The notes beneath the pieces were generated by a model. It was not told the origin of the DNA. It made no database searches and saw only the letters and a list, made by a program, of their open reading frames with translations. Position numbers and translations under genes: made by a program. A stretch of DNA of 64,000 nt, from positions 248,001 through 312,000 of the forward strand of contig NW_001799000.1 in the NCBI RefSeq assembly GCF_000165425.1. The letters are read 5' to 3'. This document shows, piece by piece, positions 13,918 to 56,094 of this stretch; positions within the stretch are counted from its first letter, which is position 1; each line of letters opens with the position of its first letter. The stretch is from Paramecium tetraurelia (taxonomy: Eukaryota; Ciliophora; Oligohymenophorea; Peniculida; Parameciidae).

Positions 13918-14609
13918 ATAATGATATCTATTATTTAGTATAAAAGTAATTTAAAATCAAAAATAACTCTATATTATCTAATTGTGATTTTCAAGAACAA
14001 TAGAAATCTGTTACTTTAATAATGATAATACATTATTTTAATGTTACTATTAAATCCTGAAATAAAATAAATTTGATTAAAATATATAAGTATCTTAAAT
14101 ATGCTTGTAAAGTTTCTAATAGATTTGTTAATGATTTTCAGGAATTTTCTGAGAATTAATATTTTTTTACATTTTTTTTGATTTTTTTATATAATTCAAT
14201 ATAATAAATGATTGTTACATTTACATTAATAACTATTCTCCACTGATATACGGATATTAAAGGTATTAATCAATATATGATTGTTGATTTATAAGTATAG
14301 TAATTCGAATTATTCAATCAAAAATAAACACGATATTGATTTATTTTTTAGATAAATCAAACCACTTTGATGATTATAAATATAAGTAATATTTGATTAA
14401 TGAGTCTCTCTATAAAATACAAAGAAATTATATTAGAAATGAAATACTTTTAGTTTTCTTCTTATTTTTCTCTATTTAATAGCAATTCAAAGAATAGGAC
14501 TACATAGTATTCATGCTTTAGTTCACATAAAATTTAATTCTTGATAATTGCATAAATACTAATGCGTATACGTATCATTTTTAAATTAAAATTAAATTAT
14601 TTTACAGAT
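13918..14609. other. AT-rich intergenic region
   Basis: Some 690 bp between the TBC gene and cytochrome c. Low-complexity, with many TTAAT/ATTAAT words; no protein-like frame and no RNA gene recognised. The last 100 bp presumably hold the cytochrome c promoter. Confidence 0.5.
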
Positions 14610-14987
14610 ATGCCTCCCAAGAAGACAATCCAAGAGCCAAATGTCAATGTTCCAAATGGAGATGCAGCAAAAGGAAGAGATATCTTTGATTAATAATGTG
14701 CTGCCTGCCACGCTTTTGAAGGAGATGATAAGACTGCATCAGCACCAACTTTAGGGTAAACTCTTTATTTAATGATTTTTAGAGGACTTTTAGGAAGAAA
14801 GGCAGGATCAACTCAATTCCCATATTCTAAGGGCATGAAGGGAGCAGGATTCAACTGGTCTGAAAAGCACTTGTTTGTGTTTTTGAAGAATCCTTCTAAG
14901 TATGTTGTTGGTACTAAGATGGCTTTCGCTGGTCTTGAAAATGAATAAGAAAGAGCTGACCTCATAGCATACCTTGCTAACAATTGA
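14610..14987 (+). CDS. Cytochrome c
   Basis: A 116-residue mitochondrial cytochrome c, the soluble electron carrier between complexes III and IV. One 27-nt intron at 14756-14782. Seen: heme attachment motif CAACH, the GRKAGSTQFPYS segment, and the axial Met in GTKMAF; C-terminal helix ERADLIAYLANN. The N-terminus is extended by about 15 residues (MPPKKTIQEPNVNVPNGD) relative to animal forms, as in several protists and plants. No break or missing key residue. Start ATG 14610 preceded by AT-rich leader; stop TGA 14985-14987. Confidence 0.97.
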
Positions 14988-15068
14988 GAAAATATATAAA
15001 TATAAGATAAAATAAAATTGTGGCTATAAGAGAACCAAATTTAGCAGCTCTTGTCATAATTATACATG

Positions 15069-20157
<5,089 letters not shown>

Positions 20158-20347
20158 TTATAAAATAATAAGGGACAAAAAGGTAAAAAAAAAACTATAT
20201 GATAAATTTTTCTTCTTTTTTTTGAATTTCAGATATATATGCTCACAAATCGGCGCGCATTTAATTTTTTCATATATACTATATATACGATATTCTCATT
20301 AGTTCAATTTTCACTATTCTTGTCACTCTTTTAATATTAATATTTTT

Positions 20348-23007
20348 ATGGATCCAAGTACACAATGGAAAGAATTAAATAAAAAATACTATAAGTTTCA
20401 TTAATTCAATCCCATAACAGGTGAACAAAAGTTCCTTGACTTTTACTATTAGCACATAGCTGTAGCCAAATGGGGTGGTCCTTTGGCAGCAACAAAAAAT
20501 TTTGATTAGGTTATACTCATGCGAACAGACGATATTCTCAAAGATTCCATAGTATTCTTTACCAACAGCGGTAAAATTATGTCAAGAACCCCATACAAAG
20601 AAGCCGATAAGGTAAATTGAAAAATAATCAAATTAGATTCCATTATTTGATTTTCTTGAAGATGAACATCTGATATTACTCAAAGCAAGTGGTGTCTACT
20701 ATATAATTGATCCTTTCAAAGGAACCAAAAAAAACCATGATTTAGGGGAATAATTCAAGCTAAATCAGATTTAAAGTGCTCTCATTGTGAATAATGGATT
20801 TGTATTGATGGCAATGAACTTTGAGTTTTATTATGTCCAAAATGCTCATGAGCCTGAAGTCTAGTAATTCAAACCATCCAATCTTACTTCATTCCCAGAG
20901 CATTGGTAAGTGATTCCTTCTGAGAAGTCATCAAGTGGTAAGGTAGAACTACTGATAGCCAATCCTGATGGAGGCATACTACATATAATTGAGAATGAGA
21001 AGTGGAAGATTTATTATAATAAAGACAAGATTACAAGTGAAATTGATAAGAAACTTCCTGATCTAAGAAATATTAAAATGTTAAGTCTATCACCAACATA
21101 CAAAAATTTAGCCTTGTTGTAATATTATGGTTAAAGGTGGATTATGGCATTTATTACTAACTATTTTGAATCTTCAGAGTATCGTTAGATGCCCATAGAT
21201 TTGAAAGAGGATGATGTAAAAAAAGATGAAACAGCAGAGAAAGATCTCAGCATTTTAGAACGACCAAAAAAGATGTTTTGGTGTGGAGATGATTGTGTAG
21301 TTCTATAATTGTAATAATACATTGTTTTAGTATCTTAAGATTCCTATACAAAAATAAAAATGAATAATTAGCATTTTGCTATGAAATCTGAGTATGATGG
21401 TTTAAGAGTGTTAACACAAAAAAAAGAATGAAATTTTAAGGAAATTGCCTGATTCGTATATTAATGTATTTGAACAACTCTCTGTTAAACCAGGGGCTTA
21501 ATTGTATTGCGCTTATGAGTCTTTTGAACAAAAGAATCCTATTGAGGATGATGAATTGAGAAATAGTAAAAGTCTGTTGAGCGAGGCAGTAAGTGATTGT
21601 GTAAGATGTGCATAATTTGAAATAAACCCTGAATATTAGATAAAATTATTAAAGTCAGGAAATTACGGCAAGATCTTTTTGGGAACTCAAAATTTAGACC
21701 CGAATATATTTAATGAAACAGCTAGATATTTGAGAGTCGTTAATTCCTTGAGAAGAGGTGGAGGAGTGGGAGGAAGAGTGGTAACATATGAATAAGTATT
21801 GCAATTGATTAAGATTCCAGATATTATGATAGGGTTGCTATTAAGATATAATTTACATTATCTAGCTGTTGAAGTTTCTAATTTTCTTAAATTTTAAATC
21901 AAATAAAGGGCCTCTATTTATACACATTGGGCGTGTCGCAAAGTTGAAGTTCAAGAAGACGATGATGTCCTATGTGAAATAATTAAGGAGAAAATAAAAG
22001 AAGAAAGAGGAGTCTCATTCACTTAGATTGCATAGAAATCAATTGAAATAGGAAAATAATAATTGGCTTTAAAACTATTGGATAACGAGTAGAGTCTATC
22101 TAAACGAATTCCAGTTTTGATTTGGATGGCCAATTTCCAATCAGCTAATAATAATAACTCTTATTATGAAAAAGCATTAGCTGATGCAATTATATCAAAA
22201 GATTCCAATCTACTATATTTTGTGATAATGAAATTCTTAAAAACTGAAATGAATGAGACTTATAAATTTAGCACTCTCGTCAGACAAGATCCAGTCTCAT
22301 AAGCATTGTTAGTCTATTATTGTAAGAAATTTTGATGATAAATATTTGTAAAAATATTTACAATATTACAAGAAATTTGATGAATGTGGCTTATTAGCAA
22401 TCAACTAAGCTTATCAACAAAACAATTTAGATGAGAAAATCAAATTCTTAGATCAAGCTTTAAAGTACTTTGCAGATGACGAAACCGACTAATTTTATAA
22501 GAGAATCATAGCTGAATAAATCATAATACTAAAAGATTTGAAATCCGAAGTAGAAAAAGGCAGAAAGAAGCCAAACCAAAACATCATGGAAGAAAGACCT
22601 ATTAATTCAATCATGGAAGCCTTTTTCGTTAAGGACAAACCAGATTTCGCTCATGAATTCGCTAAAACATACAAAATACCAGATCGTAGGTACTATTTTT
22701 ACTCATAAATAGAATTTACTTGACTAGAGTTAAAACCTTAATCAATAAGAAGAATTGGGATGAATTGGATAAGTTTATGTAGGAGAAGAACAAGAAATCT
22801 ATTATAATACCATACGAATTAGTGGCAGAACTACTGTTTAAAGCAGATCAAGAGGAAAGAGGTATTTCTATACTCATGAAAATGCCTGATGTTGAAGTAT
22901 TTCTTTAGTATATTCTAGGAATCCTGTAGAACCTTAATAAGGATTGGATAGCAGAGTTCTGCCGTTCAGGTTGCAATAAACAATAAAAAAATCTAATTAC
23001 TTTATGA
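20348..23007 (+). CDS. VPS16: VPS16, core HOPS/CORVET subunit (two frameshifts)
   Basis: About 869 residues if two single-base insertions are allowed for. VPS16 joins VPS11, 18, 33 and others in the HOPS/CORVET tethers for endosome-lysosome fusion. Introns of 25 nt (~20616-20640) and 23 nt (~22690) are clear. Seen: N-terminal beta-propeller features (AVAKWGGPLA, MFWCGDDCVVLQ) and the VPS16 C-terminal helical domain (LHYLAVEVSNFLKF, IYTHWACRKVE, AKTYKIPDRR.YLTRVKTL). Reading breaks at an A8 run (21418-21425) and a T4 run (22330-22333). Deleting one base at each restores the family alignment and makes the coding length divisible by three. Either these are homopolymer errors or the copy is inactivated. 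Confidence 0.9.
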
Positions 23008-23070
23008 TATCAGGGGGTTGATCTTTGATAATTCAGCCAAGGCATTGCTGGAAACTTATTTAAGCCAAAA

Positions 23071-23835
23071 TCAAAAATGAATAGCAAAATAAATAAATAA
23101 CAAATCATTGCATATCTGTGATTCTCCATAAAGCATTAGCCACTTCCGGCTTACAGACAGATACAATATGTTAATTTTCGATCTTACTTTAGTAAGGTTA
23201 GGTGTGTAAATAAAGTCCAGTACATATATGTTTAAGTTCTAATATACTAGAATAATAATACTAATAATAGAGTATTGTTTGATTTCTTCGTCATCTGCAA
23301 TGATTTCCCATTCATCCATATCATTTTACAAACAACCAACTTCCCCCATGTTATTTATGGTTTGTAAACATTTTAAATACGATTATGTAATAGGATGATA
23401 AACATAGGTTTTATTGTCCATCCATATAATTTGCCACCAGTCATATTCATAATTGCAATTATTGCAAGTGCTTACTTCATTTGATTTATTGTGTTCATGC
23501 TTAATAGCATGGGAGTGTAGGTATCTTTGAGTGTGTAGATTATATAACTTAATTTAGTGATGCTTTTCCATCTTAAGTCCCTATGGAAACCTAATCAGGT
23601 TTATGGTTGCACTCTACTCAATCTAAAATTAAGAATTTAGTTCAAAAGATGAATTTTGATCCTGCTCCGTTTCTGGGTCTTCTTTTATAACAATGCTTTA
23701 AACTTAGCTCAATAATCTTGACTTTTTTCTTCTATGGCATGCTTTTAGATTGGAGAAGTCTTATTCAAATATTTCTTTTCTTGGACAATCTTAAAGAGAG
23801 GAGTGATTATTATATTCTTTAATGCAATTTCCCAT
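23071..23835 (-). CDS. MIR-like domain protein with N-myristoylation signal
   Basis: Open minus-strand frame of 254 residues without introns (ATG 23833-23835; TGA 23071-23073). It starts MGNCIKEY, a good N-myristoylation/palmitoylation signal. Residues about 95-175 read KLYNLHTQRYLHSHAIKHEH...YEYDWWQIIW, resembling the beta-trefoil MIR motif of SDF2, IP3 receptors and protein O-mannosyltransferases. An acidic segment (WEIIADDEEIKQ) follows. The last 70 residues are Ile/Leu-rich and less protein-like; an unrecognised intron near 23270 could give a different C-terminus. The function is unknown, and its lipid anchor would place it on the cytosolic face of a membrane, unusual for a MIR domain. 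Confidence 0.6.
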
Positions 23836-23948
23836 TATGATATAATTATTGATGAACACATTTTAATAATATTACGTAGTATTTGGATGAAAATGTCAAA
23901 ATAGTAGGATTTCTGATTGCTATAATTTAATATCTAAATATGTATATA

Positions 23949-25728
<1,780 letters not shown>

Positions 25729-25772
25729 TAGTTAATTATTAATTATTAATTATTAATATTAATTATACGATT
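25729..25772. promoter_or_regulatory. 44-bp bidirectional promoter with TTAATTA repeats
   Basis: The whole space between two divergent ATGs. It consists almost entirely of four to five overlapping TTAATTAT units (25732-25767). Both promoters must lie here or within the coding sequences. That it acts as a shared promoter is inference. Confidence 0.5.
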
Positions 25773-26579
25773 ATGTACTTAGATAATTTTTTTTCTTAAG
25801 ATCATCCTTTTCAATAGAATAGTAGTCCTCAAAATCAAATGCTCATGAATTCACCTTCGTCACTAGACTTAAAAAAAGATTTCGAATAGTAAGAATTTCT
25901 AAGATCTCCACAAATCATCTATGATATCAATTCCTATGAGTAAATTCCATTAAATTGGAGTATAAAACCTTCTAATCTCAATTTTCCTGGTTAACAATCT
26001 TTGATTTTAAGATCTGGTAGGTCATATTGTTACAATTATTTTAAGTAAGACCTAACTCAAATATAAAACGAAAATAATTAAGGTTTGGAATAGTAAGTGG
26101 ATTTAGAATGCCTAATGTAAAAAAGTGATTAATTGGATGCTGTCAATATTACTTCCAAGAAAATAAGTACCAAATCCTAAGCATTTAAAATTTAAAAGAA
26201 AACGAAAATTTTAAATATTACTAGTTTAAAGTGTTAACAGCCTTGCAATTGTAAAAGTAGCGGGTGTATCAAACGCTATTGCCGTTGCTTTCATAGTGGA
26301 AAAACATGCTTGCCAGAGTGTTAATGTTAGGATGGATGTCTGAATAAGGAACATAATAATTGTGAAAGAAGTGAGGCAATAAAACACGTGAATGAAAAAT
26401 GTTATAGAAACAGAAAAATTCCAAAAGAGGCCCTCTTTAAATTGGACGTAATATATGGATGTTCTTGTACTAAGTCTAAATGCAGAAAAAGATACTGTGA
26501 ATGTTTTTTAAGAAATTAGAATTGCACTGAGAAATGTAAGTGTTTTGATTGCTGCAATCGATAAATTATAACGGAATGA
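25773..26579 (+). CDS. CRC (tesmin/TSO1/LIN54-type) DNA-binding protein
   Basis: A single-exon gene of 268 residues. The C-terminal 110 residues hold two Cys-rich CXC motifs (CNCKSSGCIKRYCRCF...CQC and CSCTKSKCRKRYCECF...CKCFDCC) joined by a conserved linker (NRKIPKEALF is the RNPxAF-like element). This is the CRC domain that binds CHR-type promoter elements in LIN54/MuvB and tesmin/TSO1 proteins. The N-terminal half is Ser/Gln/Asn-rich and disordered. All expected cysteines are present. A role in cell-cycle-linked transcription is known for the family and inferred here. Start ATG 25773 is the first in frame after the 44-bp divergent spacer. Confidence 0.93.
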
Positions 26580-26630
26580 CCTTATCGTAATTTGTTACAT
26601 CTATTATTTCTTAAATTTAATTATTTAATT

Positions 26631-27189
26631 ATGATGCGTCTATATTACTAAGCATTCAGCAAACTTATCAAAGTAGATCGTTTAGCACTGACTCCACATC
26701 AATATTGGATTGCAGCTGGTAAAGGAATGGAACGCCCTTATACAGGAGAATATTGGTTTGTAAATTTAATGATCTATCTCATCAGAATCAAGAAGTTGGA
26801 ACATATCACTGTTAGCATTGCGATAATCAATTGTTTTCTTTTGACTCTAAATACAAATCAACTACAGGATATGCATAATTTTGGAATCACATACCTAATA
26901 GCGTAAAATTAGAGGAATCAAACATTAAAGTATTAATACTCATTCATCTCTCTTTTAGGAAGAAAGGGATTTGTGTTGTGCTGGATGTGACAGTTTTGTT
27001 GGAAAGGTTTCCTTTGATGGACCTCCTCCAACATTCATTAAATATAGTATTAATTCAGCTGCATTAAATTTCAAACTGAAATCCTTTTAAGAAGACCCAT
27101 ACTTTAGAAAAATTGCTAGAAAAGAAAAAGAGGCTCAACGTTAGAAAAAAGTAGAACATAATTATTTAGAAAGCAATAGCAATTTGTGA
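26631..27189 (+). CDS. MsrB/SelR-fold protein lacking catalytic residues
   Basis: A 167-residue protein after removing introns of 26 nt (GTAAATTT...CATCAG) and 29 nt (GTATTAATACTC...TTTTAG). It aligns end to end with methionine-R-sulfoxide reductase B: LTPHQYWIAAGKGMERPYTGEYW at the N-terminus, then zinc cysteines in CQHC and CAGC, and the C-terminal INSAALNF strand. However, the catalytic Cys of the RYCINS motif is Ser (KYSINS, codon AGT), the GWPSF motif is GYAQF, and the HxGHVF His is absent (VGKVSF). The fold and zinc site are kept while the active site is gone, so it is probably a pseudoenzyme. A basic, coiled C-terminal tail of about 40 residues is added. The short N-terminus may be a mitochondrial signal. 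Confidence 0.85.
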
Positions 27190-28992: not shown

Positions 28993-30690
28993 TCATTTAG
29001 TAAATTTTAACAATTCTATTAATATCTCTTTTGATAGCATATTAATATCTTATGTATTCAGTATCTTCTATTTATTATCGAGTAAAAAGATCATGGCATT
29101 GGCTTTCAATTCTTATGCCGAGAATTTATCAGCCAGATTGACAACATCAATCACATTTTTCAGTGAAATATTTTTAATCTATAATTAATGAAATCTGAAT
29201 AAATACTAAATGATCTTCACACAAATTCTTAAGTCTCTACAACATATACTTATCTGCCAATGCTAATAAATCGTATACAATATGGGAATCGATGAAGACT
29301 TCGTCAGTATAAATGTACTATAAGATTGCTATTGCGATTAAATTATTTAATGAATACCCTTGAAAACATTAATTGAAGTATCAGTGATAGCTAGTTTATC
29401 TCCTAAGTTGAATTATTCGTTTAAAAATAGAGTTTTGAAGTATTCGCAACGAGATGCCAGTATAATTTTATGTGCATGAATCTCTTGATTATCAATATAG
29501 AATGTGATGTCACTCAAAATAGGAGAAAATAGAATGCTTGAATAATCTTGTTTGAGTGTAGATTCTGCTAATTTGATGATTGACTATTGTTTGAGCATAT
29601 AGACATCATTATATGATTTCTCACTATCATTACCTCCGAAGATCACAATGGTATTCTTATAGGCAATAGCAGAATGTCGACATCTGGGTCTGGGAGGTGA
29701 TGATTATTATGATGTGCTATCTTTAGTTTATCCTCGGAAATTAGATTAATTGTCTAAAGTGTTGATGACTATATATTCCCATTGATTTTCAGTGATATTG
29801 TACATGAAGACATCATTTCTCCATTGTTATCCATCATATCCTCCAAACAAATAGATCTTATTATTCATCATAACAGCAGAGGCACTAACTCTTGGAGATG
29901 GTGTACTTCCCTTGGGTTACAAACGTGTCCATAGATTGTTTTCAATATCCAATTAATATAAGTCATTTAATTGATGAGATCTGTCAGGTTCACCACCAAA
30001 AACATAAATTTTATGGTCATAAATAACAGAACTATGTTATAATCTGCCTTATGGTTTCTGTCCTGTAGTTTCTACTTAAGTCCAGAAACATTTAACGAGA
30101 TCGAATTTGTATAGATCACTCAACCACATTTTACCATCTCCGCCTCCAAAAATATACATAAAGTCTCCACAAATATTGGCTGTATGAAACTGTCTCTTTG
30201 GAGGAGTATTCTCTGATTTAAGATGTTGCCAATCTATACAAACAATATTCATTTATTCGCTCGGAGTCATCATAATAATATCATCCAACACTGTGTACCC
30301 ATTCCATCCTCCATAATAGACAATTTTATCATAATAATTTTAAGCACTGTGTCCCATTCTTACATCTGGGATCTATCCATTTACTTTGATTTATGATGTC
30401 CAACTTGTCTTTTACTAGAAATTTATTACTTCAATCTTTTTAAATCCAAAATATGTATGTCATTACAGAACTTCTTCCTGCCTTCACCTTCTTTGCCACC
30501 AAAGATGATCATGTAGTGTTTAAATGTTGTGGCTGTGTGACAATTCCTACAAGTTGGCAATTACGATGCAGTTGTTGCCTTGATATTTTCCCATTCATAA
30601 CTAGCAAATGTAACTAATTATTTATCACCCATCCTTACCATCATCTTCTTTGTTGTCAGTCATTTCGGTCTTACGAATACAATAATCCAT
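28993..30690 (-). CDS. Kelch-repeat protein with C-terminal BTB-BACK
   Basis: About 530-540 residues. The N-terminal part is a beta-propeller of roughly six Kelch repeats, with motifs such as IIFGGKEGEG, YIFGGGDGKMWLSDLY, YVFGGEPDRSHQLNDLY, YLFGGYDGQQWRNDVF and VIFGGNDSEKSYNDVY. A BTB domain follows (SDITFYIDNQEIHAHKIILASRCEYFKTLF ... ILQYIYTDEVFID), then a short BACK-like tail. Introns: 25 nt near the start, 29 nt and 28 nt in the BTB part; one more is probably unplaced. The Kelch-then-BTB order is that of LZTR1-type proteins rather than KLHL proteins. A substrate-receptor role for a CUL3 ubiquitin ligase is known for the family and inferred here. Start ATG 30688-30690. Confidence 0.88.
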
Positions 30691-44981: not shown

Positions 44982-47900
44982 ATGTATCAAAAGAAGAGAC
45001 CAGAAAGAAATAAGTAGTTAGATAAAAGTCAATGGCATGCCTTAGAGTTATCTGCTATTAAGATGCCACCTTTAACAAATAAAACAATTGCACTATCTGA
45101 TTAAAAATAGGAACCAAAATTTACAATTTCAAGATTTTCAAAAGCAAAATACTTGAGAAATGATCTTTTAGATACAACTTTCTAATAAATTTATGAGTAA
45201 GGAAGGGTGGAGGAAAAGATGAATTAGTTATTGACTATAGAGTAATACTTTATATCCTAAGGCTTTGATTTTTCAATTTAAATTCATAAGAATGTGTATT
45301 TGCCAATAGAAAAATTTGAGGATGAGACACTACAGAAATATTCTAATGAATAAGTTATCTAAATGCTGAAGACTTAAAAAATTTAAATATTTGTGATGGA
45401 GTAGAATTCTTTGGGGGATTGGTTCTGGTATAGAGCTGAATTAATTGGATATTCTAAATTATTTCATTATCAAAGAAAGAATAGAGAAGGTAGATGTGCT
45501 AGAATTCACTTTATAATGGATTTTGAAGACAAGTAATTGTATATTAAGAAGTTAAAATAAGCATTTTATCTCAGGGACTAGATGGATAGATATCTAAAAT
45601 TTAATTGTTATGTTGAGAATATGCCAACAAACGATTTAATTTAATTAAACTCTGAATAGAGAAAGAGAATTAAAAAAAGGTTAGGATTTGAATTTCCATC
45701 ATCATTAATAAAAAAAGAATTTATTGAAGTAAACATATTGAATTTGAAAACACAAAATGAAATCATTTTCATCCATTTCTTAAAAAATAGTGAAACTAAT
45801 AAAAAATTGAAAGATCTATTAGAAATATTTAACAATCAATACAAAAAACCTTAAATTTCTATTAGAAACATAATATAGAATTAGTTCATATATTCCGAAG
45901 GGATTATGATTTAATAGATAAAAACCTCATTTCAAATATTGAGACAATCCTACTTTTTGGCATCTATTTCTAATATTAAACCTATTTAAAAATGTTTATA
46001 ATATTTAAGCAATCAAATTGCTGATTTATTATAATTAGAACTATTTGTATATCAATAATAACCATTTGAAAAATATAAGTTTTCATAAGAAATGCATATG
46101 AAAACGGTCTTGTCGAGCATTAAAATTAAATGGGCTTAAGAAATCATTGAATTTTTTAGAATAAATTTATAAATCTAAAATAAAAAAAGCTTGATACTTA
46201 CATAAATTTAATTGGATAGATTATTTCAATTGATTAGAATGAGATTACAAGATGCATTGCATAATTTTTTGAAGATTAATTTTGAAAAATTCATTTATTA
46301 CTTAAATTAACATACTCCTGAAGATGTATAAATTTAATCCTATTCTTAAGTTCATAATATTTATACTAACTAATATGCAATATTAAAGCCCCTATATACT
46401 ATTTAAATTTAGTTTAAAGCTAATGAAATTTGTTATTCCATCAACCCCCTACAATTCAAAGATATAATTATTGGATTCTTTGAGCAAATCTATGAAGCTA
46501 TTGCAGATATACCTGATCCGGAAACTAGGTTAATTGAATATTTTCAGAAAGAGTTTTTATATGAAATGAATGGAAACTTAAAAGCCCCTGAAAAAGAATA
46601 ATCAGTAAATTTTATCATTCTATTCTTATTAGTATATTGATGCAATTGAAAATTTAGCTAATAAAGTGAGAAAGTCCCTTTTTGATTATTTGAAATAATT
46701 TTAAAGCTTATAAAAGTTATGGAACTCAAAGTCATTTGAAATAAATTTAGCTGAAACTCTCATTCTTGATAACAGAGAGGATATGAAATTAATTGACTAG
46801 ATTCCAGATTTTATTGAAGTAGGAGCATTTTTAATAATAATATCAGAAATGAAAAATTAATTTTATTAATTATTAAGGAAAAGAGAATAGAATTATATTG
46901 AGTAATTGTCATTGTATCATAAAGAAGATTGTATGAGATTACTAAATGAATTTGCTAATTTAGAATTGAAGATAATTGAAAAACCTTAAAATATTGAATA
47001 GTTAGTAGAGAAAAGAGAATTTCTTGAGGATGATTTCCCTTAAAAATTGGGGTTATTACAATAGGAAGTCTCAAAAAACAAATTCTATTTTGATCTGTTA
47101 AATTCAGTTATTGAATGTTAAAATATTGTTTATATAAACTTCTATCCTATAAGAAGAGAGGATACTCATAAATATTATCGACTGTTAATTTAAGAATAAT
47201 AGCTGCTGAAATTAGCAAAGAGTCAGAAGTAACTATTGGAAAATTAAAAAGAGGAGATATTTCAGATTTAAGCTCATGAATAATCAAAGTTCAAAAAGAA
47301 AATTAAATAACTTTAATAGTAAGTGTATAAATTCCAAGAATACTATTAATTGGAACAAAGTAAGATCGCAGAAGAAGAGATGATTACCATCAATAACTAA
47401 TTTTAATAGTACTCAGAGGAGGCATAAAGATTCAATAAGAGAGAATAATTGTTTGGTTTAGAATAAACTAATTATGAAATTCTGTTATAATTGCAATGCG
47501 AATATAAACCATTTGAAGTAGTTTGGAGAGTGAATTCAATTTGGTAATATTAGAATGTTAAATGGTTAAATGATTCTTTGAATATAGTAGATTATTAGGG
47601 ATGTGAATAGTTTTTTAATTAAGATTATAAGTAATTCATATAAGTAGTAGATAAAATATAAGGTTCAGAAATATTCACTTTGTGGAAAAACTTAAAAAAA
47701 GAAATAGATTTATTTTAAATGTATGTTCCAATATTGCTGTCGTTAACGAAGAATGGATTAAGGGATAGACACTTTAATTATTTGGGATAATTATTAAATA
47801 TTTAGGATGATTAATTTAAAAATTATATCTCTTTATAAAAATTGATTGATTTAAAAATAATTGATTATTCGGAGGAATGTATAGAATTAGGATTGAAAGC

Positions 47901-50900
47901 GTAGGAGGAGTTTGGTATTGAGCAAGTTTTAAAATAGATAACTGATATTTGGAGTGAATATAGATTTAATTCAATTTTAGTGAAGGGAGTATAAATTTTT
48001 AAGAAGATAGATGTAGTTTAAGCATTAGTTGATGATCACTTGATTTCATTGGAATTAATGATGAAACAGAAGAATAATAATTTTTTCATTTAGGAAATAA
48101 ATACTTTATACGAAGATTTGAGACGTATATCAACATACTTGGAAGAATGGAATAAGACTTAAACATAGATTGTGTATATGTAGCCAATTTTTGATTCTGG
48201 AGATATTTTGAAGCAACTTCCTGTTGAATATAAAAAGTATAGACAAATAGATAAGTTGTATAAGGAGACAATTGGGTTTTCTGATAAAGTGATTGAGTTT
48301 GGATAGCAAGATGTACATAAGGTGAAGTAGATTAATAATTTATTGGATCAAATACATAAGGAATTGGGGAATTATTTGGAAAGAAAGAAGGAGAAGTTTA
48401 GTAGATTCTACTTCATTTCAAACGAAGAAATCTTAGAAATTCTATCGAATGGATAGGATTTCGTATTTTTGTAGAAGTATCTTTACAAGTTGTTTGAGAA
48501 TGTAGTTAATTTGAAGATGAATAAAAATAATTATATTTATGCTCTTTAAACAAAGGATAGCGAACTGAAATTATAAGAGAAGGTAGACACAAATAATAAA
48601 TGTATAGAAGATTGGTTATTGGAGGTAGAATAACAAATGAAGTAGAATGTGAAGAACTGTATTTTGAACAGGAATAATGAGTGTGGTAACTAAGTCACGA
48701 TGATCAATTTTGAATTAGATCACACAAATAGAGTTGAAGAAGATATGAAATAAGGAAGAGATCTAAGGATATATTTAATGGAATTGAAGGATAAATTACA
48801 TAATAAAAATTTAGATGTTGCCAATATCATATTATTGGCTCATCATGTAGAAGTATTAAAACAACTAATAGATTACAATTAATAATTGATTCCATTCTAT
48901 TGGAGTTTATAATTGAGATATTATATTAAGAATACCAATTGTTAAATTAATTCCTTGGAGGCTTCAATACAATATGGGTATGAATATCAAGGAAATATAG
49001 AGAGAATTATTATAACTCCATTAACAGAGAGGAGTTTGGTAATATTTTTGAATGCCTTACATTATAAACGAGGGGGAGCGGCTGTTGGCTAAACAGGCAC
49101 AGGAAAAACAGAAACTATAAAAGATTTGTGTAAAGCTGTAGGATATCGATGTATTCTGTTTAATTGCTCAGAATTAGTAGACTATGTTCTCATTTCATAA
49201 TTTATCAAAGGAATTTACACAAGTTAATGTTGGAGTTGTTTTGATGAATTCAATAGAATAACAGCTGAAGTATTATCAGTGGCTGCATCTAAACTAATGC
49301 AATATTAACCAGATGGGATATTCGTTACCATAAATCCTAATTATAAAGGAAGACATGAATTTCCTGATAACTTGAAATCTTATTTCAGAATGGCATCCAT
49401 GATCTCACCTAATGTCTAAATTATTTTGTCAACCATCTTGTCAATTTTTGGATTCAATGAACCATAAAAACTGACTACATAACTAATGTAATTGATTTCC
49501 ATTTCTAAAGATTTATTATCAAATCAACATCACTACGATTACAGTTTAAGAGCTTTAAAGAGTGTGGTAATGTTAGCTGGTTAATTATATAAACAATCTA
49601 ATGATCAAGATAACAATCAATAAAATTATATTCTAAAGGCCTTAAAATATGTATTTGAGCCTAAACTAATATAAAATGATCTAAATTTATTCCATTAATT
49701 ACTATTACAGTTTTATCCAGCTTAAGAAATCAAGTCTGTAGAAAGAGATGATTTTGGTAGTTTTATTGTTACTAGTATTTTGCAATAAAAAGTATCAGAA
49801 CTTAAATAAATACTTAAACTAAGACATGGTATTATGATTGTAGGTCCTGCAGGTTCAGGAAAGAGCGCTTGTTTAGAAGTAACACTTAAATAAACAAGCA
49901 TGACTCATATTAGATTGTTTCCTAAAGCAATGAAGGTTTCTGAATTGTTTGGATGTCTAAATATAAGTACTTTAGAATGGGAAGAAGGAGTGTTACCAAG
50001 TCTCCTAAAATAGGAATAACAATAGGACATTTATATATTTGATGGGGCTGTAGAAACTGAATGGATTGAGACTATGAACTCCGCTTTAGATAATAGTAAG
50101 AGATTATGTTTAACGAATGGATGCATAATCAATCTGAATTGTTCTATGATTTTTGAAGTTGACAGTCTTAAAGGGGCAACTCCTTCAACTATATCCCGAT
50201 GTGGTATTCTATACATTTCAGATGATCCCTTGTTGGGATTGAAATAATTTATATCCAACAAATGCGATAAATAAGCATCCAAGTTTAATGAGATTATTGA
50301 AAAACTGAGATCTAAAATAATTCAATTAAAAATACCTTTGAGTTACTTTTCTAATCAATTGATTACAATTATAAAGGAAATATAAAATGAGTATCATAAT
50401 TTTAATCTTTAATTATTTGTGTATTGTTTAGCGTGGACCATATTGCCATAAGTAATAGAAAAGAATGAACGATCAAATATAAACCAATAGTTAATAAATC
50501 TAGGAAATATTATATGTGATAACTTATTAATTTATAATGAGTATAAAGAAGACATGAATAAATTTTAGCTTATTCATGTACCAACAATTTTAAAATTCAG
50601 TAATTTTGAAGATATTTATGTTCCGAAAATAGAGGATATGGCCTATTTAAAAATCTCATCATCTCTTTTAAATCAATCAAATATCAGATTTGAGGGTATA
50701 AGTGGGGCAGGTAAAACTAAACTTATAAATGAAATTCTACATAGCTTTTAATATATAAGGATCAACTGTTCTTCATCTACTAATTCATCAAACACATAAA
50801 TGACATTGGAATCAAACTTAGAAAGAAGAAGGAAAGGTGTATTTGGTCCTTAAATGGGTTAGAAATGCATAATAGTCTTGGATGATTTTCATATGCCTTA

Positions 50901-53900
50901 GGATGCAGAATTGGTTAGATAATTCTTACATTAAAAAGGATGGTACTCAAAAAGAGACACTCACTCAATTCTCCAAAAAGTTGAAGACACAACCATTTTA
51001 GCAGCCATGACTCAGTAACATTAGCATAGTGATAGAATGTTAAGATTATGGACAACATTTAAATTTTGTTAAGAAGAAACAATCTATTAAACAATATTTA
51101 ATTAGATGACTCAAGCATTTTAGATGTAACATATAGTCTAAAAGACTTTGTAAGCTTATAAATAAATAAAAGAATAAATAAAAGCAACTCCTTTTAAGGT
51201 GCATTATCAATTTACAATGAGAGATGTTTGGAGAGTGCTTTAGAGTATGTGTACTAAGAAAACACAAAATGAATATCAATGGAATTTCGAAATGGCTAGG
51301 GTGTTTATTGATAGATTGATTTCAAAACAAGATAAGATCTTAGCATAATCAATAATTGGAGTAGATGCAGTGTAATTTTGTGAGTTTTCTAGTGGATACA
51401 ATGATCACTCATATAAGGCAGTAAATGATTTGGATACTTTGTTATAATTAATGAAAGAACAATTTTAGAAATAAGGAATTACAATATATGAGGATGCATT
51501 GAAATCATTGATTGCAATATCGAGAGTATTAGGACTGCAATCAGGACACTTAGTAATATTAGGTTAGGTGGGCACAGGAGGAGTGCAATTATCCAAATTG
51601 GCAGCCTTAATTTAAGAGAATGAATCTCCTCAGATTGATAGATGGAAGGATGATTTGAGAAATATAATTAAGAAATGCATTATGGAGAATAAGAAGATGA
51701 CTATAATTATAGATGATTAAAGAAATACTCATAATTAACCATAAATTTATTAAGACATAAGTACTCTATTGAATTCAGGTGACCTTGACATATTTAATAG
51801 ACAAGAATTAGATGATCTTCATTCGATATTCTAAGAATAAGCAGTCTAAGAATAGAAGGATTCTAAAATTAACCTCAAAATTTTGCTACATAAACTCTAT
51901 GTTAATAGATTGGTTAGGAATTTGCATTGCATAGTTTGTATAACATCTACCATTAAATTCCGACATTATCCAAATCTTATCAATTGTTCTACAATTCTTG
52001 CTCTATAGTAATTGCCAGATCAGGCATTGCTTAGCATTGCCTAAATGTAATTAAAACATTTGGATATCAATCAAAAATAACTAAGTGAATTATTCAAATT
52101 TTTCCATTAATCTGCTTAACTTATTGACAACCATTAAAAAATTCAAACTGTTACTTCAATTCATTTTTCAGATCTCATTTTCACATTCAATAAACTATAT
52201 CAATAGAAAACAACTGAATTATAATCCAGGATTACTCGTATAAAAAATGGACTCTCCAAAATATTAATTGCCAACGAAACTATTACTGAATTAAAAAAAG
52301 AATTACTTGAAATTACCCCTGAGATTGAGAAATCATAATAAGAGAGTTCAAGAATGATGCAAAAATTAAAATAAGAAAAAGATTAAGCTTTTTATTAGGA
52401 ATCTTTATTAAGTGAAGATGAAACACAAGCCAATGTTTAATAAATCTAAGCAACTAAATTAGCCAATGAAGCTACCTAAGCAGTAAAGGAAGTTAATCTC
52501 TTATTAGATTAAACCCTATAGGATGTATCGAAATTGAAAAAAGAACATTTAATAGAAATCAAATCATTGGGAAAACCACCAAAACCAGTAGTGATTATCT
52601 TAACAGGAGTAGTCATTCTAAATTTAGATAACTTACGATAATACATTACTTAGCCACTTACTTAATTATCAAACCAAGAATACTTTGAAATTGCTAAGAA
52701 ATATTTGTTGAATGATCCCAAAGAATTATTGGAGTTAATAAGAAATTATGACAAAAATAATATCAATCCCTATAATATTAATAGACTTGAGAAGATTGTA
52801 CTGTCAGAAGCAGACTTTACATTCGAAAGAGCAAAACAATGTTCAGCTGCAGTTAAATATTTGTACTCTTGGGTCAAAGCCATGTATGAATATAATAAAG
52901 TTTACATTGAAACTAAACCACTGAGAGAAAGACTAATTGAAGCCTAAAAATAATTGAAAGACAAAACTGATATTTTAAATGAAAAGAAATCGCAATTAGC
53001 AATTGTATTTCAAAAAGTCAAGGTCCTATAAGAAAAATATGATTAATAAACATAGAAATGCGAAATTCTTAATAAATAACTTGAGGAATCATCAAGTAAA
53101 TTATAACGTGCCATAGGATTAACGTAAGGATTAGAATAGGAACAATAAAGATGGTCTCAATAAATTAATGTATTAGAGAATTCTCTAAAAAGTGTCCTGG
53201 GAGATTGTGCAATAGCAGCTGCATACTTGAATTACTGTGCTCCACTTTCAGAACAATTAAAATACTAATTATTACAGTAATGGTCCAAGTAAGTTAAAGC
53301 TAAAATTGGATATGAAAATCATCCTCTATAGTTTTTGAATCCTTCCTAAATCTAAGACCTGCATTAAATCAATTCAATATTTTTACAACATACAATTAAA
53401 CCTATTCTATGCATTGATCCACAATGTTAGGCAAATGAATATATTCGAAATAATAATTCAGTCATGGATGTCAATGATTAACATTAATTTGAAGTTGCGC
53501 TTTCATTAAAATAAAGTATTCTTATTGAAAATCTAAACACTATACCAGATTGGTTAACTGAATATGTTAATAACAATCCTCATCCAAAAGTTAAAATCTT
53601 TGTTACCACAATGCAATATAACTTTTAGATGACTTCATTGAATTATTCATAATTTTATGTTATCAATTTTTAGATTACTAAACTGAATGCTGAAGAATTG
53701 ATCTTGAATTAAATTGTTAATACTCAGAATCCAGAATTATATAAACAATAAGTAGAATTAAAGTAGATGGAATTCAAAAATGAATAGAAATTAAAGTAAA
53801 TAGAAGATACAATCCTTTCTATTTTAAATGTTGAAAACATCAAAGATTTACTCAATTAGGAAACATTAATAAATCAACTTTCTCATTCAAAGAAAACATT

Positions 53901-56094
53901 TAATGAAATACAATTGGCTCAATCGGAATTCCAATAAATATAAAAGGATCTGGTAACCACCAAACACTAATATAAATAGTTAGCATCTAAAATAACAGAC
54001 TTATATTTCATCTCTCAAGATATGTAATGTTTAGATCCTATGTATTAATTTTCATTAGAATGGTTCATTACTTAGCTTCTCTATACAATTTAAAATACTA
54101 ATAATCTAAAGCTTATTTTTTCTAATTTCCGTTTAAGATATTATTCTTGCTTGAGTAGAGTTCTAACTGAACGTCACAGATAGGTTTTAGCATTTCTATT
54201 GGCCAAATAATGTTTGGTATCTGTCGATCAGGATGATTGGTAAGCCTTTATTGGATATACCAAATTGAGAAATGAAGATTTTTAAGTTAAAATAAATCCA
54301 TTTTCATGGATAGACAATGCCAATTATCAAAGAATTTGTTCTGAATTAAATCATTTCTAATTGGTAACAGCAAAAATACTAATTAACAATTTTGAATAAA
54401 TTAAATAATTTTATTTAAGTAAGAAATTCTAAGAATCAGAAATACCTCATATCGAGAGATTAGATGAAATGCAAAGAATATTTATAGTCAAAGCGATTCG
54501 ACCTGATTACATTTAGATTATGGTCAAATAATTTATAATCCGAATGCTAGATTTCGACATAGACAAGGTCTAATAAATTCCACTTGACATTACATTTAAT
54601 GAAAGTTCACACACTAAGATATTGCTTTATGTGCTTTAAAATAATTAAGACCCAATTGAATAAATCAAAGATTATGCAGTTAGTAAAAATTTCATTAAAA
54701 AATTATGGACTTTATCTTTGGGTTAGGGTTAAGGAAATAAAGCAGAGAGACTTATAAGAGAGGCTGCAGAATAAGGATTATGGATTGTAATCTAGAATTG
54801 TCATTTACATTAACAATGGCTGAATGAATTAGATAAATTAATTATGATTGAATCACATGCAGATTACAGATTGTGGTTAACATCTAAATCGATAGTATCA
54901 TTTCCAGGAAGAATCTTACAAAAAAGTGTGAAATTAACATATAATACGAATGACGAGAAGTAAATAGAAATGACAGATATTGCTAAATTTCATTTTGGAT
55001 TATTAAATTTTTGCAAACTGGGATTGTTGGGTTTTAATAAAAAATATTAATTTACTTAATATGATTTAAATATCACTTAAGAATAAAGCAATAAGATAGA
55101 TGTAAGTGATTAATTAAAGCCAATAGCTTTGAGTTACATAACATCATAATTACATTACGGAGGTCATATTGTAGATGAATAAGATTAAATTATTCTCAAT
55201 AAATTATCATGCTATTATCTAATAGATAAAGTCAGCCCAGTAAATAGCAATCTTATATAAATATATGTTGGAGAATAAATGTGTCAAGAATTTGTGAATG
55301 ATCTCCTCTACAAAGAGTATGGACAAATAGATCAAATAAATGATGAAATCAACAAAACTATTTAATATTTAAACTCAAATTTACCAAAATAGATTATCTT
55401 TGAAAATTCTAGGAATCATAAACTAGATCCATTTTTAGTTTAAGAGATTTTACTCATAAATTAGCTGATTGAGATGATATAGGAATCTATCGCTTTGATC
55501 TAGAGAATTTTAGCAGGAGATTCGTCCCCTAATACAATGATAGCTGAAGACATAAAGTTTTAGAGAGTACCATAAGAGTGGATGGATATTGGATTCAGAA
55601 GTGATAAGAAACTTGGTTAATGGTTTTAAGAATTTTTGAAGAGAGTGAACTTTATTAATAATTGGAATGATTAAGGAATACCAAATGCAATATGGTTGGG
55701 AGGATTGATGAAACCTAATAGTTTTTTAATGTATGCAAAATATAGTGAGGAATGTTTAAACAAAAAATCAATATATACTATTTTGGATAGTATACAATTA
55801 GACCATATAACCAACTGTCCATCTAATGGTTATTATCTCTATGGATTAACTTTACAAGGAGCAAAATGGAATTAAAAACAACACATATTAGTAGAATCTA
55901 ATTCAATGTTAAATGAGTTTCCCATTTGTTATTTGAATTACAAAGAGGATGATGAATATTAATTATTCTATTCATGTCCATTGTATAGATTGATAGACAG
56001 GAAAGAGTTGATCGCATTCATTCCGATGCCTTGTGACACAAGCAGAGAATGGATATTGAGTGGAGTTGCAGCTTTTATTAATATTAATATATGA
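44982..56094 (+). CDS. Axonemal dynein heavy chain
   Basis: About 3,650 residues with few 25-28-nt introns. It is the motor subunit that moves axonemal microtubules for ciliary beating. In order: N-terminal tail; linker; AAA1 with Walker [11 protein letters not shown] (~49095) and Walker [12 protein letters not shown]2 GPAGSGKS (~49845); AAA3 GISGAGKT (~50700) with [11 protein letters not shown]4, whose Walker A is degenerate ([10 protein letters not shown] at 51562-51591, no Lys). The coiled-coil stalk and microtubule-binding domain follow (ILTGVVIL...[19 protein letters not shown], ~52230-53160), then AAA5-6 and a C-terminal domain ending [12 protein letters not shown]. The length and motif order are complete with no break. 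The tail suggests a single-headed inner-arm type, which is inference. The stop codon overlaps the next ATG. Confidence 0.95.

Follow-up and report, generated by a model that had tools for sequence, protein, structure and literature searches.

What becomes of an enzyme fold once its catalytic residue has been replaced? This question is raised by a gene at positions 26631-27189 (+) of a 64,000-nucleotide stretch of Paramecium tetraurelia DNA (contig NW_001799000.1, positions 248,001 to 312,000; hereafter the window). The gene encodes a protein of 167 residues with the fold of methionine-R-sulfoxide reductase B (MsrB). Its three exons, spliced under the ciliate genetic code (code 6), give an intact frame with a TGA stop. 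The original prediction, made from the sequence alone, took the protein for a recruited, non-catalytic MsrB fold rather than a simple case of decay, perhaps a binder of methionine sulfoxide or oxidised proteins. The first part of this proposal is supported here; the second is unlikely. Most probably the gene is co-orthologous to mS81, which in Tetrahymena belongs to the small subunit of the mitochondrial ribosome (mitoribosome); an enzyme fold would thus have been recruited as a structural subunit.

Loss of the active site and conservation of the zinc site

The relation to MsrB, said earlier to run along the whole protein, is borne out by the SelR profile (PF01641), which matches residues 20-130 over profile positions 1-115 of 116 (E 3.9e-33). 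The score of 114.3 bits lies far above the gathering score of 24.9 bits. The MsrB model TIGR00357, with a cut-off of 113.05 bits, is missed at 83.6 bits.

The active site was compared with 85 catalytic-type MsrB references, namely 5 PDB chains and 80 loci, the latter being the best 80 of at least 550 relatives (at least 592 pattern matches) ranked by similarity to catalytic MsrB. Because they were picked near catalytic MsrB, these references show the norm of the enzymes and not that of every SelR protein. Six positions are invariant in all 85: the Trp of GWP, the two His of HLGH, the Arg and Cys of RYC, and an Asn. At these positions the window protein reads Tyr, Phe, Lys, Lys, Ser and Asn. 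The replacement of RYCINS by KYSINS and of GWPSF by GYAQF, both recognised in the original prediction, was confirmed in the alignment. As for HLGHVF, the loss of one His had been noted, but both are gone (FVGKVS). In contrast, the two zinc-binding CXXC pairs (C52/C55 and C98/C101) are indeed kept, although the full set of four Cys is present in just 29 of the 85 references.

A SelR family of five loci in Paramecium

The PF01641 profile was searched against the genome (69 Mb), in which the window lies on contig C47. Five loci were found through nine exon matches, and the window protein used as query returned the same five. The locus on C169 is the whole-genome-duplication twin of that in the window: the proteins agree at 155 of 167 residues, the intron sites are the same, and the DNA is collinear across most of the 29.7 kb compared. 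A CXC-like gene, similar to the upstream neighbour of the window gene described below, also precedes this twin. A second pair of twins, likewise collinear, stands on C121 and C108; their proteins agree at 126 of 159 residues. Both intron sites are common to the two pairs, which are about 48% identical to each other.

The fifth locus, on C16, is of the catalytic type, with GWPAFW, HLGH and RYCINS, and its intron phases differ from those of the other four. Used as a query, it matches only itself and C169. It passes the TIGR00357 cut-off with 176.6 bits, whereas C169 (83.1), C121 (91.5) and C108 (91.1) fail. The idea of a genome without catalytic MsrB is rejected, and the second, catalytic MsrB that the original prediction suggested looking for is present. 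C16 is the sole catalytic-type MsrB found in a search that gave the best candidates only, exon by exon, so that further copies are possible.

The two non-catalytic pairs may themselves go back to an older genome duplication. For the window frames 14397-14984 and 23074-23895, the best genome match after the one on C169 lies on C108 (at 368 kb and 374 kb), close to the SelR gene that this contig carries at 377 kb (block C108:367821-377236). Across window positions 14397-27189 the order of the three genes is kept on C108, with strands mixed; in the SelR query, C121 scores above C108. A likely trace of an older duplication is thus suggested, supported but not proven because gene order is kept and strand is not. 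Paramecium introns usually end in TAG. In the C121 and C108 genes (L004 and L006), three of the four introns, inferred from open frames and homology, end in AAG.

Selection for a non-catalytic protein

Ser stands at the nucleophile position in all four non-catalytic loci found in the genome and in the Tetrahymena chain considered below, which excludes an error at one codon. Outside Paramecium, the residue was compared with this one chain and with statements in PMC5371997, so that its conservation in another species was confirmed for one species. The ratio of nonsynonymous to synonymous substitution rates (dN/dS; Nei-Gojobori, code 6) was used within pairs only (between pairs dS exceeds 1). The window gene and C169, both of which already carry Ser, differ with dS 0.734 and dN 0.037, i.e., dN/dS 0.050 (bootstrap 0.022-0.095). 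Hence, selection has maintained the protein as a non-catalytic one. The agreement of four loci with Tetrahymena and a dN/dS far below 1 reject sequencing error as well as decay; neutral evolution had been named as a possible objection to the recruited fold. The second pair is less constrained, with dN/dS 0.163 (bootstrap 0.094-0.284).

The Ser codon itself differs between the pairs. C47/C169 use AGT and C121/C108 use TCA, more than one base step apart. Either Ser itself was selected while the codon switched, or there was more than one loss of Cys.

Kinship to the mitoribosomal protein mS81

Among 177,635 distinct PDB sequences, the best match of the window protein is 6z1p_BL, a 'SelR domain protein' (E 1.4e-37, 132.7 bits). 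Human MSRB2 follows at E 2.5e-19, and the best MsrB enzyme reaches 73.3 bits. The C121 protein also has 6z1p_BL first, with 113.1 bits against 74.9 for the best enzyme. In the C16 control, by comparison, this chain ranks 20th of 22 matches, with 52.7 bits against 158.7. A profile of the five non-catalytic proteins scores 6z1p_BL at 267 bits and the next chain at 99, 6z1p_BL being itself part of the profile.

The 6Z1P entry is the model of the T. thermophila mitoribosome (PMC7326499). In this cryo-electron microscopy study from 2020, SelR is listed among the new mitoribosomal proteins, which belong mostly to the small subunit. The order within the sentence identifies SelR with mS81, which is labelled a methionine-R-sulfoxide reductase. 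At one point the study places SelR 'in the body extension'; at another, mS81 appears among the additional proteins of the head. However, the aligned residues of the Tetrahymena chain read RFSISSAA at the catalytic motif, NLGLVF for HLGHVF and GMTSF for GWPSF; hence mS81 is also without the active site. The results section of PMC7326499 carries no remark on this loss. Trp, both His and the nucleophile are lost in all five proteins (the four of Paramecium and mS81), and each has all four zinc Cys. Across the five, three different residues occupy each of the old His positions and two the Trp position.

The tree agrees with the searches. The five proteins stand on one side of a branch with values of 100/99 (124 columns), and the same values were obtained after removal of the six catalytic columns and of two long rows, L047 and L058 (118 columns). 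These values come from few columns and long branches, with bootstrap not settled in the 124-column tree, with references near catalytic MsrB and with a single, partial Tetrahymena sequence. Inside the clade, support for a group of the four Paramecium proteins is 99/89 and 99/91; their division into two pairs thus seems to postdate the divergence from Tetrahymena.

Besides the SelR domain, both CxxC pairs and the Ser for Cys, the window protein and mS81 have in common GMERP, DGPPPTF and a basic tail after the domain. The long basic C-terminal tail that aligns with that of mS81 is found only in C47 and C169. In contrast to the window protein, mS81 has Met rather than Tyr at the Trp site and keeps the Phe of the HVF motif. 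It is also longer, with 310 residues, more than 100 of which precede the aligned region, and with a longer central loop.

As to origin, the ancestor would have been an ordinary zinc-containing MsrB. One copy would have been recruited and stripped of its nucleophile, of the two His of the active site and of most of the pocket for methionine sulfoxide; the simplest timing for this is ahead of the divergence of Paramecium and Tetrahymena. The zinc-clamped beta fold would have stayed as a structural element of a protein-rich small subunit, and the catalytic-type C16 gene would remain for repair. The window protein would accordingly be expected to be imported into mitochondria, to be incorporated into the Paramecium mitoribosome and to be devoid of reductase activity. 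A weak mitochondrial indication is given by the 20 N-terminal residues, with four K/R and one D/E; the C16 protein is similar (three K/R, one D/E).

Several points weigh against this identification. Identity to the aligned piece of mS81 is only 46%. The Paramecium protein does not have the long N-terminal part and longer central loop of mS81, so its contacts may differ. C121 and C108 are equally co-orthologous in the tree, and the ribosomal copy could be either pair or both. Finally, catalysis could have been lost several times, as Paramecium and Tetrahymena have different residues at the Trp and His sites and the Ser codons are AGT and TCA; a single loss ahead of the split is no more than the simplest reading.

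Both halves of this account are already in print. A 2017 paper on Euplotes (PMC5371997) reported the Ser substitution, and PMC7326499 located the Tetrahymena protein in the ribosome. The former describes Ser-type 'SelR' proteins of unknown function in Paramecium, Tetrahymena, Oxytricha and Stylonychia, with the double CxxC of the window protein and the catalytic Cys replaced (by Thr in Euplotes). Its Discussion and related passages name no ribosomal role for them. These proteins very probably belong to the same family as the window protein, the spirotrich members being likened by description; if they do, the loss of catalysis is older still. No paper joining the Ser-type SelR proteins to mS81 was found in searches of open-licence PMC papers. 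An answer can thus be offered for a small orphan family, as the ciliate 'SelR' proteins of unknown function are very probably mS81. The 'reductase' label of mS81 is in turn open to a modest correction, the Tetrahymena chain having lost the nucleophile, both His and the Trp. The family illustrates neatly how the fold of an enzyme can end up as a building block of the ribosome in a genome that retains a catalytic-type MsrB.

Alternative roles

The presence of two diverged mS81 subfamilies, kept through two whole-genome duplications, invites a speculation that we regard as doubtful. Paramecium might assemble mitoribosomes of two sorts, or the second subfamily might act separately within mitochondria; Ser, unchanged whether encoded by AGT or TCA, would then have been selected for its structural part in place of the old nucleophile, perhaps on more than one occasion.

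An improbable alternative is that the relatives of mS81 serve as mitochondrial assembly factors, or that one Paramecium subfamily sits in the ribosome and the other elsewhere. The retention of each subfamily in duplicate at about 48% likeness would fit such roles; a division of roles would also fit the restriction of the long basic tail to C47/C169 and the higher dN/dS of C121/C108. Both pairs, nonetheless, are nearer to mS81 than to any PDB enzyme, and the ribosome is the simple reading for the window gene.

The role originally proposed, that of a free protein which binds or senses oxidised methionine without catalysis, is very unlikely. In its favour, the MsrB fold and zinc site are kept, and thalidomide is bound by a related domain, the CULT domain of cereblon, which has no catalytic residue at the equivalent site (PMC4287342). 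The same source gives W73, R97, H111 and F113 as the methionine-sulfoxide pocket of X. campestris MsrB (3HCI numbering). Mapped by spacing, with a constant offset of four, these correspond to W77, R101, H115 and F117 of C16, and they are all kept in C16 and in the 85 references. However, none of the four is kept in any of the four Paramecium paralogues, where all are replaced or missing, and mS81 has one kept and three changed. This loss makes a binder of methionine sulfoxide unlikely, and the nearest solved relative sits in a ribosome.

A reductase still active through another residue can be given hardly any credit, since its candidate C97, found beside the zinc set in the window protein, C169 and mS81, is not in C121 or C108 and lies next to a zinc Cys, away from the former active site, since all five proteins have lost the nucleophile, the Trp and the two His, and since no Cys outside the zinc set is common to the five proteins in the alignment.

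Comparison with other families

Catalytic MsrB proteins (C16, human MSRB2 and MSRB3, and the families of TIGR00357 and PF01641) are like the window protein in the SelR profile and the zinc site. They differ in that the Trp, both His and the Cys are kept in C16 and all 85 references. A fold relation of SelR/MsrB to Mis18, Yippee and the CULT domain of cereblon is stated in PMC4287342. The likeness to these beta-tent domains is weak and far below that to SelR (a Mis18 chain at E 0.0061 with the five-protein profile; Yippee-Mis18 at E 0.00063 for C121, below the cut-off), and the window family is not a member. A search of phage proteins gave six records, two annotated as MsrB and four unannotated. 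Scans with two short peptide patterns returned no relatives among 11 pattern matches in viral contigs, nor among 42 in genome contigs.

Gene structure and neighbouring genes

The features of the gene are collected in Table 1. The two clean introns of the original prediction were recovered, both in phase 0. Retention of either would shift the frame, so that an isoform with Cys arising in this way is ruled out. An upstream start is likewise ruled out by an in-frame TGA at 26577, with no in-frame ATG from there to 26631.

Table 1 Features of the mS81-like gene in the window; codon coordinates of named residues were counted by hand from the DNA letters
Feature	Position	Strand	Remarks
Exon 1	26631..26759	+	ATG start; basic N-terminus MMRLYYQAFSKLIK..., then RLALTPHQYWIAAGKGMERPYTGEYWF
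Intron 1	26760..26785	+	26 nt, phase 0, GTA...CAG; from open frame and homology
Exon 2	26786..26929	+	Holds C52/C55 zinc pair and Tyr72
First zinc pair, C52/C55	26810-26812, 26819-26821	+	Codons in exon 2
Tyr72	26870-26872	+	Exon 2; replaces the MsrB Trp of GWP
Intron 2	26930..26958	+	29 nt, phase 0, GTA...TAG; from open frame and homology
Exon 3, including TGA stop	26959..27189	+	DGPPPTF, basic C-terminal tail
Second zinc pair, C98/C101	26977-26979, 26986-26988	+	Exon 3
Phe104 and Lys107	26995-26997, 27004-27006	+	Exon 3; replace the two active-site His
Ser121	27046..27048	+	Codon AGT at the catalytic Cys position (RYCINS to KYSINS); from alignment

The TGA at 26577 is the stop of the upstream neighbour (25461-26579, +), which ends 51 bases before the mS81-like gene and in the same frame. 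This neighbour has two Tesmin/TSO1-like CXC stretches (PF03638, E 1.5e-17). On the opposite strand, an open frame of 1465 codons (15382-19776) combines a chromodomain, an SNF2 helicase and a PHD-like finger and was labelled a CHD-type remodeller. A BTB domain and Kelch repeats occur in one protein at 28996-30459 (-). The genome is characterised by code 6, tiny introns, low G+C content and duplicated collinear blocks, traits that fit a Paramecium of the aurelia type, and under this code an open frame of 3174 codons extends over 46570-56091 (+).
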